Origin: a virus
DNA: 64,000 nucleotides
IMG/VR virus record: IMGVR_UViG_3300036715_002535
Location: 1 to 64,000 of that record
Direction: 5' to 3' (one strand)
The notes under the pieces were generated by a model. That model was not told the origin of the DNA, ran no database searches, and saw only the letters and a program-made list of their open reading frames with translations. Every line of letters starts with the position of its first letter. Within the stretch, counting starts at the first letter, position 1. Of this stretch, positions 2,688-52,441 are shown in pieces. The translations under genes and the position numbers were made by a program.

Positions 2688-3037
2688 AGGTTGCGTCCGT
2701 GATGGTCACTACCACGTGCCCACTCATGGGCAGGTACATCTTCGTAGTCATGAGAGTTTTCATTCAGGAAGGCAACATAGTCGCCGGATGTCTTGCAGAG
2801 AATGCCTTCTTCAAGTTCCTGATCGAAGTGACCGAAGATGTCGGCATCCTCTTCGTTTGGTACTCCTTCGATTGCGTAGACAGTTAGATCATCATCGGCG
2901 CTAGGACCATTCTCAGCCACGAACATTGAAGTTTTCAGGCCACGTGCCAAAACTGCCTGCTTCCAAGATTTGTAGTCCTGGAAGGTTTCGCGGTCATTCG
3001 CTCGTCTCCAGAGATTGGCGGTTACACGGAGCTTCAT
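2684..3037 (-). CDS. Hypothetical protein (117 aa) with MKLRVTA N-terminus
   Basis: Not recognised. It starts at ATG 3037 with a strong GGGAGGTGATCT ribosome site just upstream. The N-terminus MKLRVTANLWRRAND belongs to the recurrent MK-[LF]-x-[IV]-x-A family of starts in this window. The remainder is acidic. It is the first gene of the leftward operon and is divergent from the terminase; the 46 bases between them (3038-3083) must hold both promoters. Confidence 0.6.
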   Translation of the reverse strand: MKLRVTANLWRRANDRETFQDYKSWKQAVLARGLKTSMFVAENGPSADDDLTVYAIEGVPNEEDADIFGHFDQELEEGILCKTSGDYVAFLNENSHDYEDVPAHEWARGSDHHGRNL

Positions 3038-3083
3038 AGATCACCTCCCTATCCATTCTAACCGAAAAAGGTTATCAATACAT

Positions 3084-5420
3084 ATGGCGCGAAGAGAAGT
3101 AGATCCCGTAGACCTTATTGAAAAAGCATTATCGGCGAACTGGGATACGAGTGAATTAGACTCGATGAAGCTGGACATCGAGGAAGCACCGAACTCAATT
3201 CAGTACATGGTGGGATCTCAATTCCATGGTATGTCCCCGTGGCCTCGGCAGATTGAGTTCGCTCTAAAAACCTTTGAAGACTATTGTCCATACTGTAGCG
3301 ACATGACAGTAGTCAACGATTGTTGGGGTAGGTCCCTCGACTCGATTCGAAACCGGGTCCAATTCCTCGAGTTCGGTAAGTGTCCAAAATGTCGAAGAAC
3401 CCGAATTGACTTCTGGAAAGAAGAACTCCATCAGGGTCGCCAAGAACTGATTGGTGTTGCCGGGCAGAGATGCTTGGACCCAGACCTCCTGGTTCGAATG
3501 GCAGACGGCATCTTGGTGTCCCTGGCCCTTCTTAAAAAGGGGGATCTACTCCAGGATCGGAATGGTACAGTCACAGAGGTTACGAAGGTCTGGCCGGTCC
3601 AGGAGCCGGGCTACTTCGTGGTCTTTATGAATCTACCTGATGGAAAGACTATCCCTATCAAGTGTGGACATGAGCATGCCTGGGTAACCGATCGTGGAGT
3701 CATAGCCACAACCGAACTATGCTACGAGGATCGGATTGAGTTTGGTGAGAGCTGGGCAACTGTTCGTATCATCAAGAAGTACCCCGGTAAGCCAGTCAAT
3801 CTGATTGACATCGAAACCACCTCCGGAACCTTTCTCCATGTGTCCGGTCTCACTCTTCACAACTCAGGTAAGACCCTAATCACCGCAGTTTTCTCTTCGT
3901 ACATTCTCCACAAATACCTGAGCATGGATGGTCTGCCATGTAGTCGGTACGGCCTACGTAACACGGTTCTGATGGGAACCTTCATCGCAGCGGACAACAA
4001 GCAGGTATCTGAAACCACCTGGGGACAATTCGCGGCTGAAATTGAATCGTCCCCGTGGTACAAGACGTACTTCGCTTTGCTGAAGGAAGAGGAAAAGCGA
4101 ACCGGTACCGAAATGTACAAGTTCAAGCCAGAGTACGCTCTGGCGTTCATGAACAAGAAGCTTCTATTCTCCCACGCAACAGGTGACTACACTGGACTAC
4201 GTGGACGTACGAGAATCCTGGGAAGCATCGATGAGTTGGGTTGGTTCGAGAGCAACGAACGTGCTAAGAGACGAGCCGGCCTCGAAATCTACACCTCCCT
4301 GAACAACTCCCTTAAGACGATCCGTTCTGCAGCAGATCATAAGCGTATGGAAGGTCAGTACGATCTACCTACCGCGTACATGTTCAATGTATCTTCTCCA
4401 GCAGCGGAAGATGATCCGATCATGACCCTCAAGTCTAAAGCTGGTACCGCGAAGAAGACTTTCTGCTTCCATCTTCCGACCTGGGAAATCAATCCCGGTA
4501 TCTCCCTCGAGGACTTCGAGGATGATATGAAGAAGGATCCAGTTAAGATCATGAGAGACTTTGGTGCCCAGCCGGGTGCCGGTCGTAACATCTATTTGCC
4601 AAACGCAGAGATCATTCTGGCATCTGTGGATGAGAAGCGTGAGAGTGGAATGAAGTTCCACAAGGAGTTCTTGGAAATCGACATCAAGAACACGCCCTAC
4701 ACCTACGTGTATCCCAAGCTAGACCACATCATGCTGGATCGTACTACCCCTTACATTCTCGCAGGTGACGCAGGAGAGTCCGGTAACAGCTTCTCCCTGA
4801 TGCTTTGTAGCTTGGATGAGAACGTGACCATCGTGAATGCGGGTGTGGTTGTTCAGCCGGTGGGTCTTGCTTCAGGTAAGATTGCAACGGTTCACTTCCC
4901 CTCAGTTCTACAGTTCATTCTGGATCTGCGTAGGCATATCACTCTTCGTAAGGTTGTCTTTGATCGTTGGCAGTCCACTTTCGTGATCCAAGCTCTACGT
5001 GATCAGGATATTGATGCAGAGAAGTTCTCTCTTCGTTATGAACACTTCAAGCTATTTAAGCAGAGATTCTACGAAGAAAGATTCAGACTACCCAAGCCAG
5101 AAGTCAGCTTCGACAAGATTATGTTACAGCATTTAGACGACAAACAACCTTCGGCTCTGTTGATCAAGCAGCTGAGAACTGTGAGGGATAATGGTCGTCA
5201 GGTCATGAAGCCCGCTGCGGAAGATGACGATCTCTTCCGTTGCCTAGTATTGGCGGACAAGTTCCTGCAGGAGGATCCGGAGGCTTTCAGAAAGATCGAT
5301 GTGCTTCGTGGTCGTGGTGGTCACTTCGCAACCTATTCTTCGAAGGAGATCCCGAAACAGAAGTTCAATATCCAATTGAACACCGGTCGGACGTTCATCC
5401 AGAAGAAAAAGACAAGATGA
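3084..5420 (+). CDS. terL: Terminase large subunit (DNA packaging ATPase/nuclease) interrupted by a mini-intein
   Basis: The phage DNA packaging motor. The ATPase Walker A loop is AGQR/SGKT, split after Arg by an intein at 3471-3863. Walker B is RILGSIDE. The RNase H-like nuclease domain shows candidate acidic residues in ILAGDAGESGN, VVFDRWQS and DDDLFRCLVLADKF. The preprotein is 778 residues and the spliced protein would be 647, normal for this family. An early zinc-type pair of CxxC motifs (YCPYC and KCPKC, about residues 69-115) precedes the ATPase. I chose ATG 3084 (MARREVD) over in-frame starts upstream because those lie in the divergent promoter region and over the opposite gene. Confidence 0.95.
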   Translation: MARREVDPVDLIEKALSANWDTSELDSMKLDIEEAPNSIQYMVGSQFHGMSPWPRQIEFALKTFEDYCPYCSDMTVVNDCWGRSLDSIRNRVQFLEFGKCPKCRRTRIDFWKEELHQGRQELIGVAGQRCLDPDLLVRMADGILVSLALLKKGDLLQDRNGTVTEVTKVWPVQEPGYFVVFMNLPDGKTIPIKCGHEHAWVTDRGVIATTELCYEDRIEFGESWATVRIIKKYPGKPVNLIDIETTSGTFLHVSGLTLHNSGKTLITAVFSSYILHKYLSMDGLPCSRYGLRNTVLMGTFIAADNKQVSETTWGQFAAEIESSPWYKTYFALLKEEEKRTGTEMYKFKPEYALAFMNKKLLFSHATGDYTGLRGRTRILGSIDELGWFESNERAKRRAGLEIYTSLNNSLKTIRSAADHKRMEGQYDLPTAYMFNVSSPAAEDDPIMTLKSKAGTAKKTFCFHLPTWEINPGISLEDFEDDMKKDPVKIMRDFGAQPGAGRNIYLPNAEIILASVDEKRESGMKFHKEFLEIDIKNTPYTYVYPKLDHIMLDRTTPYILAGDAGESGNSFSLMLCSLDENVTIVNAGVVVQPVGLASGKIATVHFPSVLQFILDLRRHITLRKVVFDRWQSTFVIQALRDQDIDAEKFSLRYEHFKLFKQRFYEERFRLPKPEVSFDKIMLQHLDDKQPSALLIKQLRTVRDNGRQVMKPAAEDDDLFRCLVLADKFLQEDPEAFRKIDVLRGRGGHFATYSSKEIPKQKFNIQLNTGRTFIQKKKTR
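3471..3863 (+). other. Mini-intein (131 aa) in the terminase Walker A motif
   Basis: The insertion begins with Cys130 (CLDPD) and ends with His259-Asn260. The +1 extein residue is Ser261 of SGKT, so the splice joins AGQR to SGKT and restores the P-loop. Block A is CLDPDLLVRMADG; the block B His lies in CGHEHAW; block F/G is HVSGLTLHN. At 131 residues there is no room for a homing endonuclease domain, so it is a minimal splicing-only intein. Splicing would be required for terminase activity. Confidence 0.93.
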
Positions 5421-10273: not shown

Positions 10274-10939
10274 TTGTTCTACATCGTTTATAAAACTACC
10301 AATCTGGTGAACGGTAAGTTCTATATCGGTGTACATGGAACTTCGAAAATCGAGGATGGCTACTTAGGTTCGGGTCTATTCATACTTCGTGCGATCAAGA
10401 AGTATGGTAGAGAAAATTTCAAACGGGAAGTTCTCTTTAGCTTTACAGACCCAAACGAAGCTTTTAGAAAAGAATCCGAACTCGTTGTTGTAGGTCATCA
10501 GAGTTACAATTTATCCCCTGGTGGTCTTGGTGGGGTAGGTAAAAAACTAACCCCGGAGCATCGAAGAAAAATTAGTGAAGGGTGCAAAAATCCTTCTTTG
10601 GAAACTCGAAGAAGAATTGGAGAGTCTGCGAAGGCTAGGTACTCTGAAGAGGATCTCAAAAGACTTCTCGAAGCCAGCAAAAGGTATACCAAGTCGGATG
10701 AAAATCGAAAAAGAATCTCAAAGATGTGGACCGGACGAACTCATTCTGAAGAGACAAAAAGAAAAATATCCGAAGCTAAGACCAACCCACCAGAAGAAAC
10801 CCGGAAGAAAATGCGTGAAGCAAAACTAGGCACTACCAAATCTGCAGAGACTCGTAGAAAGATGAGTGAGTCGCAGAAGGAAAGACAGAAAAGAAGCCGA
10901 GAATTAAAGGACCTGGAGGTTAGAAGTGTCATTTTATAG
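10274..10939 (+). CDS. GIY-YIG homing endonuclease with NUMOD3-like repeats (221 aa)
   Basis: The nuclease core is FYIVYKTTNLVNGKFYIGVH with a later Glu in EAFRKESELV. After about residue 85 come repeats of the type P-E-x-R-R-K-I-S-E and S-E-E-T-K-R-K-I-S-E (NUMOD3-like DNA binding). It starts at TTG 10274 just after the small charged gene, and its last 14 bases overlap the protease-like gene. The GGAGG ribosome site of that gene (10915-10919) is inside this endonuclease, so it sits in the operon without disrupting expression. It is distinct in sequence from the 1279-2181 enzyme. Confidence 0.92.
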   Translation: MFYIVYKTTNLVNGKFYIGVHGTSKIEDGYLGSGLFILRAIKKYGRENFKREVLFSFTDPNEAFRKESELVVVGHQSYNLSPGGLGGVGKKLTPEHRRKISEGCKNPSLETRRRIGESAKARYSEEDLKRLLEASKRYTKSDENRKRISKMWTGRTHSEETKRKISEAKTNPPEETRKKMREAKLGTTKSAETRRKMSESQKERQKRSRELKDLEVRSVIL

Positions 10940-25291: not shown

Positions 25292-25328
25292 AAAAGGGAG
25301 GATCTTTCGATCCCCCCTTTTTTTTCTT
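25292..25328. terminator. Bidirectional intrinsic terminator between convergent genes
   Basis: A stem of GGGAGGATC (25296-25304) and GATCCCCCC (25309-25317), one mismatch, with a four-base loop. Eight T follow on the plus strand and four T on the minus strand. Read from the minus strand the loop is GAAA, a stable tetraloop. It sits 16 bases after the rightward gene and touches the end of the leftward fibre gene. Confidence 0.9.
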
Positions 25329-28311
25329 AGTTCACGGTTTCGATCTTGATCATATTGTGGGCCGGGTATTCTCCAGCAACGTATACGTGACCGTTGTCCA
25401 TCGTGAGATGATAGACATCCACGTATTCTTCCATGGGCCTGACTTCGAGAACCTTGACAGCTTCCAGAGTATTGAGTTCCATGTTATGCCACAGAATCGA
25501 ATCCCCGGTTGCCAAATCTCTTGCCGATGGGTAAGAGGGTTCGCCGTCCACCACCTTGGTGAGGCGATGGTCGTGAGAGCAAACCAGTGAGCTCTTGTCC
25601 GTAACGATGGTGAAGAGCTGACGGTTCTCGTACTTGAACGTTGCAGTAACTGTCGCAAAGATAGGTTCGAGGGTGTGCTCGTCGAATCCAATAGCAACAT
25701 CTCCAACCTTCAGGAGTTCGACTGGGATATAGCCAGTAGATGTGAGGATGAGAGTTCCTGCCGGTACGCAACCACCGCCTCCACCGCCTCCACCGCCTCC
25801 TCCACCACCGCCACTGGAGTAGACCAATTCCGAGATGGAAATTGTCTTGCTTACCGAAGTGGATCCCACGCAATTCAAAGTAACCGTTACGGTATAGGGG
25901 AAAGTTCCAAGAGCTGTAGTGCTGAAGGTCATGTTGAGCGTAGAACCGGTGATGGATGCTCCAGGTAGATTACCACCTGATAGGGTCCAGGTAAGAGCAC
26001 TTCCATTTCCGCCAGTACCACTCAAAGGTAAGGTATAAACACCGGAAGAATTCTGGATGAATGAGAAGGTGTAAGCATCCAGGTTGGTGATGACAAGGGG
26101 CTGAGTAACGAACTGATTCACTGTTACAGAAATTCCCGTTGTTACCGTATGGAGAGAGTCCACGGCTTGTAAATTGACGGTATAGACATCTGGCACCGCG
26201 CCTGGATCCGGAACTGATGCGGTTAGAAGATTGCCGGCGACGGCGGCACCTGGAAGGGTAGTTCCTGCTAACAAAGACCAAGTGACGGGACCTTGTGCGT
26301 TTGTAGCTTGAAGTGGAATTACAATGGACCAGGGATAGGTAACGGAAGCATCCGCTTGGAAGTTCTCATTGAGATTGATAATCGTCAGTGTGGATGTTGG
26401 CGCGAGCTGACCGAGGTATTTGTGGCTAAAGTGAATCAGCTGCCACCAGTAGTAGTCGTGGTTGCAAGTGATGCACAGTTTGGCACCAGCGCCCAACCAT
26501 CCAATCCAGAGGGTTGGATGCGCACAGTCGACGGATTCTCCTGGGCTATGATTGATAGTTGCATCCGAATTTAGTCTTCCCCAAGTAGCTACTGGATCCA
26601 TCATAACGTTGATTTGGAGTGAAGTGTTTGAGTTACCACCAGAGTCTCTTCCATTGTTTATCATAAGAGAACTGAGTTCATAGATTCCGGCTTTGGCTAC
26701 AGTGAAGACTCCAGTTGCAGAATCATAATCAATGTTCACCCCGCTATGATACTGTTCGGAGAACTTTACCGGATTTGAAGTCAACTTCCATATATTTCCT
26801 TGACCGTTGATGTTCGTGTAGTAACCAACGGATGCGTAAGGTTCAATGATCTGATTAATAATATCGATCTTACGAACTACCCCGGCATCTACCAAAGGTG
26901 ACTGGTTTACCACAACGCTCTGATCAAAGGTCTTCGCACCAGCAATTGACTGAGCCGTGGACTTAGTAACAAAGTCCGCTACCCGTGCTGCAGTGAAGTA
27001 AAGATTAGACCCTTCTGGAATGTTCGTTGTCGAAAGACTTACCGCTCCGGTGAAAGTATTGACGCTGGTGACGCCTGCTGTGATGTGATTGACATTGTAA
27101 TCCAACTTCTGGATGGCCTGCAGGATAGTATCCGAAGCAGTCAAAGCACCTGAGGTCGAAGTGAAACCGGATAAAGTAGCGCCGATTGCAAGTTCATTTG
27201 TGAAGTATTGATTTCCACTTTCAGGAACGTTCGCAGTGGTAAGCGTAACCACTCCTGTTAGACCGTTCACTGAAAGAATGTCTGAACTACCACCCTGGAT
27301 GAGATCCCATTTCACTCCATCAAAGACGATCAGATCCCCGAGGGTCCAGTTGGCATTGCCATCGATGGAAGTTGTTCCGGGTGTTGCTACCTTGTAGTAG
27401 TATCCCTTCGTTCCAGTTCCAGAGGAAATTGTCGGAGTATTGGTTGCTGCGTCCCAGGTTCCCTGATAATTCATCGCACCCAGAACCGCATCCGGCAAGT
27501 AGGCTGTTGAGATCTTGGTATCTGCACCCAGTGGGACGATACCGCCAGGGCTACCAACCAGAAGGTGCTGCATGATGTCAGCATCAAGGTAAGGAAGACC
27601 ATAACCGGACCAGGTAGTTGGATGGGTCTGGAGAGCAGCAAAGTCCAAAGTCTGCCAGGTCTTATCCCCTCTCCAATACTGGGTTGCCGTCCCCATCGGA
27701 TGAAGAGGTTCCTTACCAGAATCCAGAGTTGCGAGGCTGGAATCTATTTTGTTCAGATCTGCATCTGTTGCGGATCTTGGAAGAAGGTAACGTGGAGAGA
27801 TATCCCCGGGTCCGATTGCAATTCCCTTGATGCTCACTGCAGTGACGGATGGAGCATCGATTCGAATCTTGAAAGCGTTTGTAGATGCAATTGAGAAGGA
27901 CTGAGCATTGAGAATGTACCCATCGGTCTCAGTTGGAGTAGCGTTCAGAAGGAAGTTCTTCGAAGGATTGGTATCCCCATCCAGAAGGGTGACTGTGATC
28001 CATTCTGCTGTTGCGGATGAGGGTTTGTAGAAAAGTGTGATGGTGTAGGAACTAATACCCAGACCAGCACCTGGATAGGAGAACGATTGGTCCGCTTCGA
28101 TCTGCTCTAGACGACCACCACCGGGATTCAGATTGATAGTGGCAGATTCTGGTGTAGAATCTGACTTGGATCCATTGGACAAAACCCAGCCATAGATCTG
28201 AGTCGGGTCCTGAAGGTTGTGACCGAAGAAAGGATTCGCGACCAGATTTACGTTACGGTATCTCTGTTCATCCTGTAAACCGTTTAAACTAAGGTTAACG
28301 AGGCTCTTCAT
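25327..28311 (-). CDS. Large tail fibre with C-terminal Hint (intein-like) domain (994 aa)
   Basis: A fibre containing the same modules as the 15233 fibre (YQGTWDAATNTP, DGNANWTLGDLIVFDG, NLYFTAAR; about residues 275-470). Two cadherin/Ig-like domains follow (about 650-830, PLVITNLDAYTFSF and similar), then a run of 14 Gly (residues 834-847), then a Hint domain from Cys848 to Asn986 and only eight further residues. The start is ATG 28311 with GGGAG upstream. The Hint end suggests self-cleavage or ligation of the fibre tip (see findings). Confidence 0.9.
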   Translation of the reverse strand: MKSLVNLSLNGLQDEQRYRNVNLVANPFFGHNLQDPTQIYGWVLSNGSKSDSTPESATINLNPGGGRLEQIEADQSFSYPGAGLGISSYTITLFYKPSSATAEWITVTLLDGDTNPSKNFLLNATPTETDGYILNAQSFSIASTNAFKIRIDAPSVTAVSIKGIAIGPGDISPRYLLPRSATDADLNKIDSSLATLDSGKEPLHPMGTATQYWRGDKTWQTLDFAALQTHPTTWSGYGLPYLDADIMQHLLVGSPGGIVPLGADTKISTAYLPDAVLGAMNYQGTWDAATNTPTISSGTGTKGYYYKVATPGTTSIDGNANWTLGDLIVFDGVKWDLIQGGSSDILSVNGLTGVVTLTTANVPESGNQYFTNELAIGATLSGFTSTSGALTASDTILQAIQKLDYNVNHITAGVTSVNTFTGAVSLSTTNIPEGSNLYFTAARVADFVTKSTAQSIAGAKTFDQSVVVNQSPLVDAGVVRKIDIINQIIEPYASVGYYTNINGQGNIWKLTSNPVKFSEQYHSGVNIDYDSATGVFTVAKAGIYELSSLMINNGRDSGGNSNTSLQINVMMDPVATWGRLNSDATINHSPGESVDCAHPTLWIGWLGAGAKLCITCNHDYYWWQLIHFSHKYLGQLAPTSTLTIINLNENFQADASVTYPWSIVIPLQATNAQGPVTWSLLAGTTLPGAAVAGNLLTASVPDPGAVPDVYTVNLQAVDSLHTVTTGISVTVNQFVTQPLVITNLDAYTFSFIQNSSGVYTLPLSGTGGNGSALTWTLSGGNLPGASITGSTLNMTFSTTALGTFPYTVTVTLNCVGSTSVSKTISISELVYSSGGGGGGGGGGGGGGCVPAGTLILTSTGYIPVELLKVGDVAIGFDEHTLEPIFATVTATFKYENRQLFTIVTDKSSLVCSHDHRLTKVVDGEPSYPSARDLATGDSILWHNMELNTLEAVKVLEVRPMEEYVDVYHLTMDNGHVYVAGEYPAHNMIKIETVN
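25354..25770 (-). other. Hint domain (bacterial-intein-like) at fibre C-terminus
   Basis: 139 residues: block A CVPAGTLILTSTGY (residues 848-861), GDVAIGFD, block B VCSHDHRLT (about 911-919), then block F/G VYVAGEYPAHN ending at Asn986. The next residue is Met, not Cys, Ser or Thr, so canonical splicing is not expected. This is the layout of bacterial-intein-like and hedgehog-type Hint domains that cleave or transfer the upstream chain. Confidence 0.88.
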
Positions 28312-28355: not shown

Positions 28356-29534
28356 TTAGGTTTCGGATTTCAACCGATCCTGCCCTTTGGTAAACTTTCG
28401 CCTACCACGAGGTCTTACAGATCGTCCATCCGCAGTAACCGGTTCGCCACCGGCCATAACTCTCTTACCCTCTTCTCGCAAGTTGATCGAAGCGTTGACA
28501 TCCCGATCATGCCTTTCACCACACTTGCTACATGTCCAGAATCGATCACTAAGTGACAATTTCTGTTGGTGGTAGCACCTGTGACAGAGCTGGCTGGAAG
28601 GGAACCAACGATCAACCTTGAGAACTACTTTACCAGTCCATCTGGCTTTGTACTGGCACATAGTAACGAAGGTTGACCAGCTTGAGTCCTGAATAGCTTT
28701 TGCTAAGCAATGGTTCTGCGTCATACCTTTCACGTTCAGATCCTCGAACACTAGAACTTGGTTCTCGTTCACTAGTTTCGTGGACAGTTTATGGAGAAAA
28801 TCCTTTCGAACATTCTGGATCTTCTCGTACACTTTTGCTACTTGAATTCTTGCTTTGTCCCTCCCTTTGGAACCTTTCCGTTTTCGTGCTAAATGTCTCT
28901 GTCTTCGTTTCAGAAGTTGTTCGTATCGTTTGATGTTGGGTTTGTTGAATTTGCTACCTTCCGAAGTAGCTACAAACGTAGTCAAGCCTAGGTCAAGTCC
29001 AATTACTCTACCGTGCGTAGAAGGGGTAGGTTCTGGTTGACCATCATCTACCAAGATGGATACGAAGTACCTTCCTGAAGGTTTCTTCCGTACTGTCACG
29101 GTTTTCATCTTTCCTTCAAAGGTTCGATCTTGTACGAACCGAACTTTCCCAATCCTAGGAATCTGAATCTTCTCCCCTTCGATCCTTACCCCTTGAGGGA
29201 ACTGGATACTTTGTTCGGAAGATTTTTTCTTAAATCTTGGGTATTTAGCACGTTTCTCGAAGAAATTTATATAGGCTTGACTAAGATTTCGGCAAGTCAT
29301 CTGAAGTGCTTGGGAGTAGGTTTCTTTCAACCAGGAAGTTTCTTCGTGCTTCTTCATTTCTGGAAGTAGGTTGATCAGATCAATCCAACTCAAACTTTTC
29401 CCAGTTTCCCTGTATGTCTTCTGAGATATCTCTAGACAATGATTCCATAGCCAACGGCAAGAACCAAAATTACTTTCTAACGAAGCTCTTTGAGCTTCGG
29501 TAGGATACATTCGATATTGATACGCTTTCAGCAC
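28356..29534 (-). CDS. tnpB: TnpB/IS605-OrfB RNA-guided nuclease (392 aa)
   Basis: Full-length TnpB. The RuvC-type active site is Asp181 (VIGLDLGL), Glu264 (VFEDLN) and Asp345 (HDRDVNAS). The zinc finger is C317-x2-C320 and C335-x2-C338 between the last two motifs. The N-terminal KAYQYRMYPT start and C-terminal basic tail are typical. GTG start at 29534. There is no tnpA in the window, so it would be a stand-alone element mobilised in trans or domesticated. TnpB cuts DNA guided by an omega RNA made from its own 3' end. Confidence 0.95.
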   Translation of the reverse strand: MLKAYQYRMYPTEAQRASLESNFGSCRWLWNHCLEISQKTYRETGKSLSWIDLINLLPEMKKHEETSWLKETYSQALQMTCRNLSQAYINFFEKRAKYPRFKKKSSEQSIQFPQGVRIEGEKIQIPRIGKVRFVQDRTFEGKMKTVTVRKKPSGRYFVSILVDDGQPEPTPSTHGRVIGLDLGLTTFVATSEGSKFNKPNIKRYEQLLKRRQRHLARKRKGSKGRDKARIQVAKVYEKIQNVRKDFLHKLSTKLVNENQVLVFEDLNVKGMTQNHCLAKAIQDSSWSTFVTMCQYKARWTGKVVLKVDRWFPSSQLCHRCYHQQKLSLSDRFWTCSKCGERHDRDVNASINLREEGKRVMAGGEPVTADGRSVRPRGRRKFTKGQDRLKSET

Positions 29535-49887: not shown

Positions 49888-50542
49888 TTACTTTCCTTTC
49901 AACCAAGAATCAAGAGGAAATTTCTGTCCTGTACGATGATCCAGGATAAGATTGTCCTGAAACCGGTAAGTTCGGATCTTGTCTCCCCTTTGCCCAGAGC
50001 CAATCTTGTCTTTTCGTTCTCGATTGATGTCTGCGTGAGCATTATTCTTTACCAGCTCCTGAAGTTTCATCTCCAACAGCTCCAATGCAACTACACGATT
50101 CCGGATCTGAGACCTGCCATCGATCCGGACTTGAAGACCGGTCGGCTTGTGGGTCGCAATAACACAGGATTCTACCTTGTTGCGGTGCTGCCCTCCAGGA
50201 CCACTGCCCCGGGTAGTTCTAACGTCTATATCCCGCAAATTTAAAGATGCCGCGCGGTTCTGGAGCTCATAACAGGCCACGGTTATGGTAGAGGTGTGAA
50301 CTCTACCCTTCTTCTCTGTAGGTGGAATACGCTGGAAGCGATGTCCTCCACTCCCTTGAAGAAATTCACCGGCGCTATCACCCTTGATGAGAAGGGAAGC
50401 GAAGCCAGGCGCCTCTTCTAAGAGTTCGGTCTCAAAGTCCCCTCCGCTCCGTCCGACGTAAATAGGCTTTCAGTTGATCCCTGACGAGTAGGACTGCATC
50501 GTCCCCACCCTCAGCAGCTCGAATCTCAAGAATGAGTTCCAT
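49888..50542 (-). CDS. Peptide chain release factor-like protein, expressed by apparent +1 frameshift (217 aa)
   Basis: ATG 50542 with AAGGAGGTG four bases upstream reads MELILEIRAAEGGDDAVLL up to Leu36, then TGA (50434-50432). In the +1 frame the protein goes on without missing residues as ETELLEEAPGF, then PPTEKKGRVHTS, the peptidyl-hydrolase loop GSGPGGQHRN, and GSGQRGDKIRTYRFQDN. This aligns with class I release factors (RGFKTEIIEES region of RF2). Domain 1 is absent. The codon-recognition site resembles RF1 (P-x-T). The break carries the prfB signal (see next entry). First gene of the operon down to 45604. Confidence 0.85.
50432..50445 (-). promoter_or_regulatory. prfB-like +1 recoding signal
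   Basis: On the minus strand: GGAGG (50445-50441), spacer GGA, then CTT (50437-50435) and TGA (50434-50432) followed by G. Bacterial RF2 genes use an internal Shine-Dalgarno three bases before CUU-UGA to shift +1. Here the next base is G instead of the usual C. The position is in the middle of a conserved domain-2 helix instead of codon 26. Confidence 0.8.
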
Positions 50543-50560
50543 GCTGCACCTCCTTGAGCA

Positions 50561-51666: not shown

Positions 51667-51969
51667 GTGGCAATCTTACCTCAGAGCGCCCCTTGGTTGG
51701 AGCAGTACTTTACGAATGGTCTTAAGGTGATTCGTCTGTACGCTCGTGCTTGGAAGACCGGGGAAGATCCTTACAAGGATGGTCTCTGGAGAGTCATTCT
51801 TCAACCGGTCAGCTCAAGTGGAGTGGTGCTTGCTGAACAGGCACAAGACTTCGAGTGGACCAAGAAGGACGACGCGATTCCCTGGGCTCAGAGCCAACTA
51901 GGTCCCTCCTTCAGACCCACCCATCAAAGAGTTCTCGGAAGGGCAGATCATGGTAACCGTCACCGATAA
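51667..51969 (+). CDS. Hypothetical protein (100 aa)
   Basis: Not recognised. GTG 51667, eight bases after the previous stop. Aromatic-rich (WLEQYFTNGLKVIRLYARAW). It overlaps the phosphatase-like gene by 20 bases; the extreme C-terminus (after about residue 85) is the overlapping part. Confidence 0.5.
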   Translation: MAILPQSAPWLEQYFTNGLKVIRLYARAWKTGEDPYKDGLWRVILQPVSSSGVVLAEQAQDFEWTKKDDAIPWAQSQLGPSFRPTHQRVLGRADHGNRHR

Positions 51970-52441
51970 AGAAAAAGCACTGGATCACTTCGATGAGTCG
52001 GATCTTTTCATTTCGATTCTCGATCCTGGTTTCAAGAAGTTTCCTCTCAAAGGATCTAAGGAGAAGCACTTTATTGCTCGATTCGAGGATACAGAACATC
52101 CCTCCGAACTAGAATGGATGAAGATGAACCGAGAGGTTCGATCAATTCTCTCATGGGTTCAACATAAGAAACCTTCTGTCGATACGAAAATTCTTGTACA
52201 TTGTCACGCTGGGGTTTCAAGATCATCCGCAATTGCGTGGCTAATCCTTATCATGCAGGGAAGAGAACCTCTTGAAGCCTTCCAATCTCTTTTCAAATCG
52301 AGATCTCAAATTTGGCCGAACTTAGTTGTGCTGGGTATAGGTTCCAAATTCCTGAACCTCGATCCCGGTTTCATGAAGCTCGCAATTCAGATCGATGAAG
52401 AAATTCGTGAAGGACGTGGTCAACTATTTGGATACTGCTGA
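51950..52441 (+). CDS. Dual-specificity/tyrosine phosphatase-like protein (163 aa)
   Basis: The P-loop ILVHCHAGVSRSSAIAW (about residues 82-98) is the HCxxGxxRS signature of cysteine-based phosphatases; Cys and Arg are both present. An upstream DESDLFISILDPGFKKF-type strand-loop could hold the general acid Asp. Substrate may be phosphoproteins or phosphoinositide/nucleotide; unusual for a phage. ATG 51950 has AGGGCAG upstream. Confidence 0.8.
   Translation: MVTVTDKEKALDHFDESDLFISILDPGFKKFPLKGSKEKHFIARFEDTEHPSELEWMKMNREVRSILSWVQHKKPSVDTKILVHCHAGVSRSSAIAWLILIMQGREPLEAFQSLFKSRSQIWPNLVVLGIGSKFLNLDPGFMKLAIQIDEEIREGRGQLFGYC

Follow-up and report, generated by a model that had tools for sequence, protein, structure and literature searches.

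The 64,000-nucleotide window analysed here (positions 1 to 64,000 of the 111,836-bp IMG/VR virus record IMGVR_UViG_3300036715_002535) contains on its minus strand, at 50542-49888, a release factor (RF) gene whose two parts lie in different reading frames. The zero-frame part (50435..50542) follows an AAGGAGG ribosome binding site (50549..50555), read from the sequence 6 nt upstream of the ATG at 50542, and comprises 36 codons, MELILEIRAAEGGDDAVLLVRDQLKAYLRRTERRGL, ending in CGG AGG GGA CTT directly before a TGA at 50434-50432. The +1-frame part (49888..50433), recognized from its translation and from domain and structure matches, encodes the rest of domain 2, the GGQ domain, and the C-terminus, and terminates at a TAA (49890-49888). 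When CTTT is taken as a single step, the parts form an unbroken protein of 217 amino acids (aa), with no gap at the RGL/ETEL junction in the alignment to T. thermophilus RF1, and a tblastn search of the whole record with this fused protein recovered the two pieces in separate frames.

The break itself consists of a slippery CTT (50437-50435) and the TGA, followed by G (50432..50437 in all, a site also found in relatives), with an internal Shine–Dalgarno (SD)-like GGAGG at 50441..50445 separated from the CTT by the three-base spacer GGA and conserved in relatives beyond synonymous expectation. CTT directly upstream of the stop, the +1 direction, and the spacing of the GGAGG are those of the bacterial prfB signal, whereas the position is not, as the prfB site lies near codon 25 and before domain 1, and the window site lies at codon 36, within domain 2. 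The pattern GGRGG-N3-CTT-T(GA/AG/AA) occurs only twice in the 111.8-kb record, at the RF gene and at an unrelated plus-strand site at 1294, and once in 400 kb of a related phage, again at the RF gene. The preliminary description, which proposed that an RF1-like phage factor lacking domain 1 carries a prfB-type +1 signal at a site different from the bacterial one, is borne out on these points, including the frame from ATG 50542 to the TGA and its continuation in +1; its placement at the RRGL/ETELLEE junction also stands, but the family model and alignment put the shift codon not in the first domain-2 helix but in the loop that immediately follows it. Comparison with relatives strongly indicates that a +1 shift is needed for the full-length window-type protein. 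A promoter scan upstream of the window gene yielded no convincing minus-strand promoter.

The fused protein matches the Pfam PCRF and RF-1 domains, and among NCBIfam models it scores highest against prfA (193.8 bits, residues 2 to 216), followed by prfB (116.8) and prfH (82.9), falling below the equivalog cut-offs of both prfA (PRK00591, 400 bits), with domain 1 absent, and PrfH (TIGR03072, 166.65 bits). A PDB search gave T. thermophilus RF1 (residues 107-319, 148.7 bits) as the best match, with RF2 at about 91 bits and RFH at 61.7; the similarity to RF1 extends from residue 2 to residue 217 of the fused protein. The codons for the stop-codon recognition loop (50293..50334) encode QRIPPTEKKGRVHT, which aligns with QRVPVTETQGRIHT of T. 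thermophilus RF1 and carries the RF1-like PxT; the window sequence QRIPPT conforms to the RF1 pattern Q-R-x-P-x-T, and the catalytic GGQ motif is encoded at 50188..50196. The structure was modelled for a single-frame relative rather than for the fused window protein, and its predicted fold (predicted local distance difference test score 91.7) corresponds to RF1 domains 2-4, with template modelling (TM) scores of 0.85 to T. thermophilus RF1, about 0.81 to RF2, and 0.66 to PrfH. Because the recognition residues and the fold are RF1-like, the codon specificity of the phage factor is probably that of RF1, UAA and UAG.

Relatives were gathered by an IMG/VR scan followed by broader scans, classified without regard to frame, and freed of duplicates, giving 176 distinct proteins, nearly all of them on phage contigs; four hits in bacterial bins (L102, L104, L119, and L181) look like phage contigs inside metagenome-assembled genomes, and each phage record tested holds one RF-1-domain protein. 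The first scan already returned four loci (L001-L004) that have CTTTGA at the window's column and, three bases before it, a block rich in purines, and the same CTTTGA site is present in the 485-kb huge phage LR745208 (L016). The initial classes were 66 internal +1 shifts, 2 N-terminal shifts, 102 in-frame TGA genes, and 6 with apparently neither; one of the six, L382, has a shift at codon 8 (MTNTRRSL/DKALVEIR, at AGGAGG-TCT-CTT-TGA), so that the final classes are 69, 102, and 5. Recoding is therefore required in 171 of the 176 distinct relatives (about 97%), and GGQ is intact in all 176. The search for a CTTTGA-type site at the same column of relatives, suggested as a check in the preliminary description, thus succeeded in 65 distinct sequences; the larger class, in which the same gene is reached through an in-frame UGA, had gone unseen there.

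All 66 internal shifts are +1 and have CTT before the stop, 65 of them at one column, although the classification procedure did not demand CTT and only about 20% of the Leu codons at these loci are CTT. In 48 of the 66, a GGAGG, GGGGG, or AGGAG lies exactly 3 nt upstream of the CTT, whereas random choice among synonymous codons at their local frequencies would give 3.1 ± 1.6 such sites. These comparisons take no account of shared ancestry; even so, the shift set falls into 53 clusters at 70% identity. The stop at these sites is TGA in 52, TAG in 11, and TAA in 3.

In the 102 members of the UGA class, which carry one or two in-frame stops in the region of columns 36-51, all 112 TGA codons fall within the first 55 codons; beyond codon 55, each of the 199 Trp codons is TGG, and only 5 TGG codons occur before it. 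One scan found TGA at the same codon in 67 of 67 distinct sequences, the 141 other Trp codons all being TGG. The UGA stands at column 36, a position where Trp is possible in bacterial RF1, in 79 members that form one clade (Shimodaira–Hasegawa-like approximate likelihood ratio test, 100), and at columns 37-51 in the remainder, some with two; two members combine UGA with UAG, and the first readthrough site is UGA in every member. L046 and L345, counted as readthrough loci with the stop at column 37, could alternatively be decayed shift sites. By comparison, the conserved in-frame UGA in these relatives is strongly indicated. Selenocysteine at this codon is not favoured, as the position is hydrophobic in relatives and RNAalifold found no conserved downstream structure in a diverged set.

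The base following the recoded stop, which played no part in finding the sites, is U in only 1 of 180 sites, compared with 36 of 128 and 59 of 173 genuine TGA stops taken from the same kinds of phage. As in prfB, it is mostly C at the shift sites (44 of 66), and at the in-frame sites it is mostly A (77 of 114); slippage is known at UGA-C, and in E. coli tRNA-Trp misreads UGA more readily when A follows (PMC5289835), so that the pattern fits +1 slippage and UGA misreading as two mechanisms. The signal also occurs outside the usual column, at codon 8, at codons 11-21, and at column 47: L104 has GGGGG-CAC-CTT-TGA ten codons 3' of the usual position, in L056 a CTT TAG stands at codon 21, and L013 (2910-3030 in the 595-kb huge phage LR756511), whose ATG has a strong ribosome binding site, has CTT TAA and then CTT TGA, two +1 shifts before the RF domain. 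By parsimony, the identity of the gate stop changed at least 13 times on a quick tree of uneven support, and the well-supported branches by themselves still require five or more changes involving UAG, in one direction or the other. The mobility of the site and the switching of its stop suggest selection for the gate as such; gate stop identity showed no significant difference with respect to the phage's own stop usage (p = 0.12).

The explanation that we regard as best, and as probable, is that recoding acts as a termination-capacity gate, by which a phage RF1-type factor without domain 1 would be made on demand. At the window-type site, the ribosome would stall at UGA and the leucyl-tRNA on CUU would slip to UUU, aided by the internal SD three bases upstream. 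Because slippage would compete with termination at the gate stop, the factor would be made mainly when the cognate release factor, RF2 for UGA, is scarce relative to demand; at a UAG gate, output would be tied to scarcity of host RF1 or of the phage factor, and the in-frame UGA relatives would achieve the same gating via readthrough, probably as Trp. Jumbo phages would in this way produce their own RF1-like factor when termination in the infected cell is limiting, and at UGA sites an additional reader of UAA and UAG would free host RF2 for UGA. A more specific form of the proposal, to which we incline somewhat less strongly, is that the gate is a cross-factor sensor, its stop mostly read by another RF, which arose repeatedly, by +1 slippage as well as by UGA misreading, at almost the same position in the gene and whose stop switched among UGA, UAG, and UAA. 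The earlier suggestion that host RF2 is sensed agrees with UGA at 52 of 66 shift sites and at every first readthrough site and with the RF1-like loop, but its corollary, that the phage senses RF2 and not its own product, is not general, since the UAG of the 11 UAG gates is read by RF1 and presumably by the phage factor.

Several observations weigh against this gate. UAG at those 11 sites is a poor fit to pure RF2 sensing, five of the 176 relatives dispense with recoding altogether, and about a quarter of the shift sites lack a clear SD. In-frame UGA readthrough is ordinarily low, and the RNAalifold analysis of diverged UGA-class sequences likewise revealed no stimulatory structure. The equivalent of E119 is Asp in 174 of 176 members, that of H193 is Gln in many, and three members (L016, L371, and L345) lack PxT and have a recognition loop about four residues shorter; given these departures from bacterial RF1 recognition, the codon specificity could differ. 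A search for a cultured phage carrying the family found none.

Among the alternatives, a constitutive brake, in which recoding merely fixes a low output of a factor toxic in excess and nothing is sensed, is unlikely but fares best: frameshifting and readthrough each reduce output, overproduced RF2 is toxic to bacteria (PMC12421855), and a stop varying among TGA, TAG, and TAA is expected if attenuation alone matters. However, a weak ribosome binding site would suffice for that purpose, yet that of the window gene is strong; moreover, both mechanisms intrinsically compete with release factors, and UGA predominates among the gate stops. Direct autoregulation, in which the phage factor reads its own gate stop (mostly UGA) as bacterial RF2 does, appears more doubtful still. 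In bacteria, the stop of the gate is always one that suits the gene's own product (PMC12421855), the phage factors differ from RF1 at the counterparts of E119 and H193 noted above, and UAG gates would suit an RF1-like product, but most members of every class, and nearly all members overall, have RF1-like equivalents of Q181, R182, PxT, and T194 regardless of the gate stop, and the best match of the window protein is RF1, at 148.7 bits against about 91 for RF2.

Genetic code 4, under which UGA would be a sense codon, the in-frame UGA trivial, and the shift sites relics, was the first suspicion for the in-frame TGA relatives, and RF1 has been described in code-4 phages (PMC10746230); it was dropped on the stop usage of long contigs and is now very improbable. 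TGA ends 49 of 249 and 79 of 240 open reading frames (ORFs) of at least 150 aa in two UGA-class jumbo phages (G012 and G019), 20 of 205 ORFs in a third phage (G022), and 26 of 66 ORFs of at least 150 aa in the window phage. Many of the TGA ends in the two jumbo phages are ATGA overlaps (32 in G012), extensions past TGA are no longer than those past TAA in either (medians of 6 and 7 codons in G012), only the CCA anticodon was found for tRNA-Trp in both, and no later Trp position of the RF gene is TGA. Counting interior TGA codons in neighbouring ORFs from alignments gave no information, as shadow frames also align. Since the standard code holds in the phages sampled, recoding of UGA is limited to the first part of the RF gene, and the stop there is a specific recoding site. 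The contigs of the two jumbo phages (loci L035 and L077) also hold large tRNA sets that include a CUA anticodon, apparently alongside the standard code. Lastly, a sequencing or assembly error or a decaying pseudogene is refuted by the relatives: one extra T in CTTTGAG would account for the window alone, but the same break recurs across independent assemblies in 65 diverged sequences, and GGQ is intact throughout the family.

To our knowledge, control of release factor synthesis by frameshifting, a textbook case of bacterial autoregulation, has been described for RF2 only. The phage system shares with prfB the CTT, the stop directly after it, the SD-like element three bases upstream, the +1 direction, the RF gene, and the weak +4 base, but it makes an RF1-like product without domain 1, its main site lies inside domain 2, its SD is mostly GGAGG rather than AGGGGG, and many relatives use UGA readthrough instead. 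The bacterial stop is moreover one that the encoded factor can read and is never UAG (0 of 8,164 prfB sites; PMC12421855), unlike the window gene, where an RF1-like product stands behind UGA, and the 11 UAG gates of its relatives. With bacterial RF1 (prfA), in which a programmed frameshift was not found (PMC12421855), the phage factor shares the recognition loop, the GGQ domain, and the fold, and it differs in the absence of domain 1, in Asp for E119, and in expression via recoding. PrfH/RFH is likewise a factor of about 200 aa without domain 1, but its similarity is much weaker, and the phage factor retains the RF1-type codon loop. The RF1 of code-4 phages is also a phage RF1-type factor tied to UGA biology (PMC10746230), whereas the phages sampled here stop at UGA. 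In bacteria and coliphage, UGA followed by A is similarly misread by tRNA-Trp (PMC5289835), producing there an extended coat protein, in contrast to the proposed gating of a release factor. Huge phages have been reported to encode RF1 and RF2 (PMC7162821), and TAG-recoded jumbo phages RF2 (PMC13037316); no earlier description of such recoding for release factors of phages was found in the open literature searched, a scope that left out most subscription papers and bioRxiv. The family may have been overlooked because standard gene callers split or miss such genes.

A radical SAM gene lies several small ORFs downstream of the window RF gene and is co-directional with it, but the functional link proposed for it in the preliminary description finds no support: when the recurrent neighbours of the 176 loci were clustered and in part annotated, no radical SAM gene and no conserved partner gene emerged. 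In 42 UGA-class loci, the surroundings of the RF gene include a dual-specificity-phosphatase-like gene, a relative of which is present in the window at 51950-52441 (+), about 1.5 kb from the RF gene. A Pfam scan of ten window ORFs, seven of them from the adjoining minus-strand cluster, detected no RtcB. Elsewhere in the window, HINT/intein-like segments were noted by eye in a terminase-like protein (3015-5420, +) and in the C-terminal domain of a long tail-like protein (25327-28311, -), together with a TnpB-like protein (28356-29534, -) and GIY-YIG-like homing endonucleases (1279-2181, -, and 10274-10939, +).

The RF genes often lie a few kb from tRNA genes (69 of 102 and 35 of 67 loci). A 436-kb phage (locus L059) has two adjacent normal-length tRNA genes with UCA anticodons (G006:139122-139296) about 9 kb from its frameshifted RF gene; these are candidate UGA suppressors. 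Given the UCA tRNAs and the nearby tRNA genes, a phage influence on UGA decoding is possible.

What we infer from these comparisons is the RF1 specificity of the factor, the sensing, and the benefit to the phage; in the best reading, a gate on a phage RF1-like factor would have evolved repeatedly, and large phages appear to gauge the termination capacity of the cell before making a factor of their own. New here are a large phage family with such control on an RF1-like factor and at a new place, RF1-specific UAG gates of a kind unseen in bacteria, and UGA readthrough as an alternative route. The family opens to test why phages carry release factors, whether infection limits termination, and what the gate stop senses.
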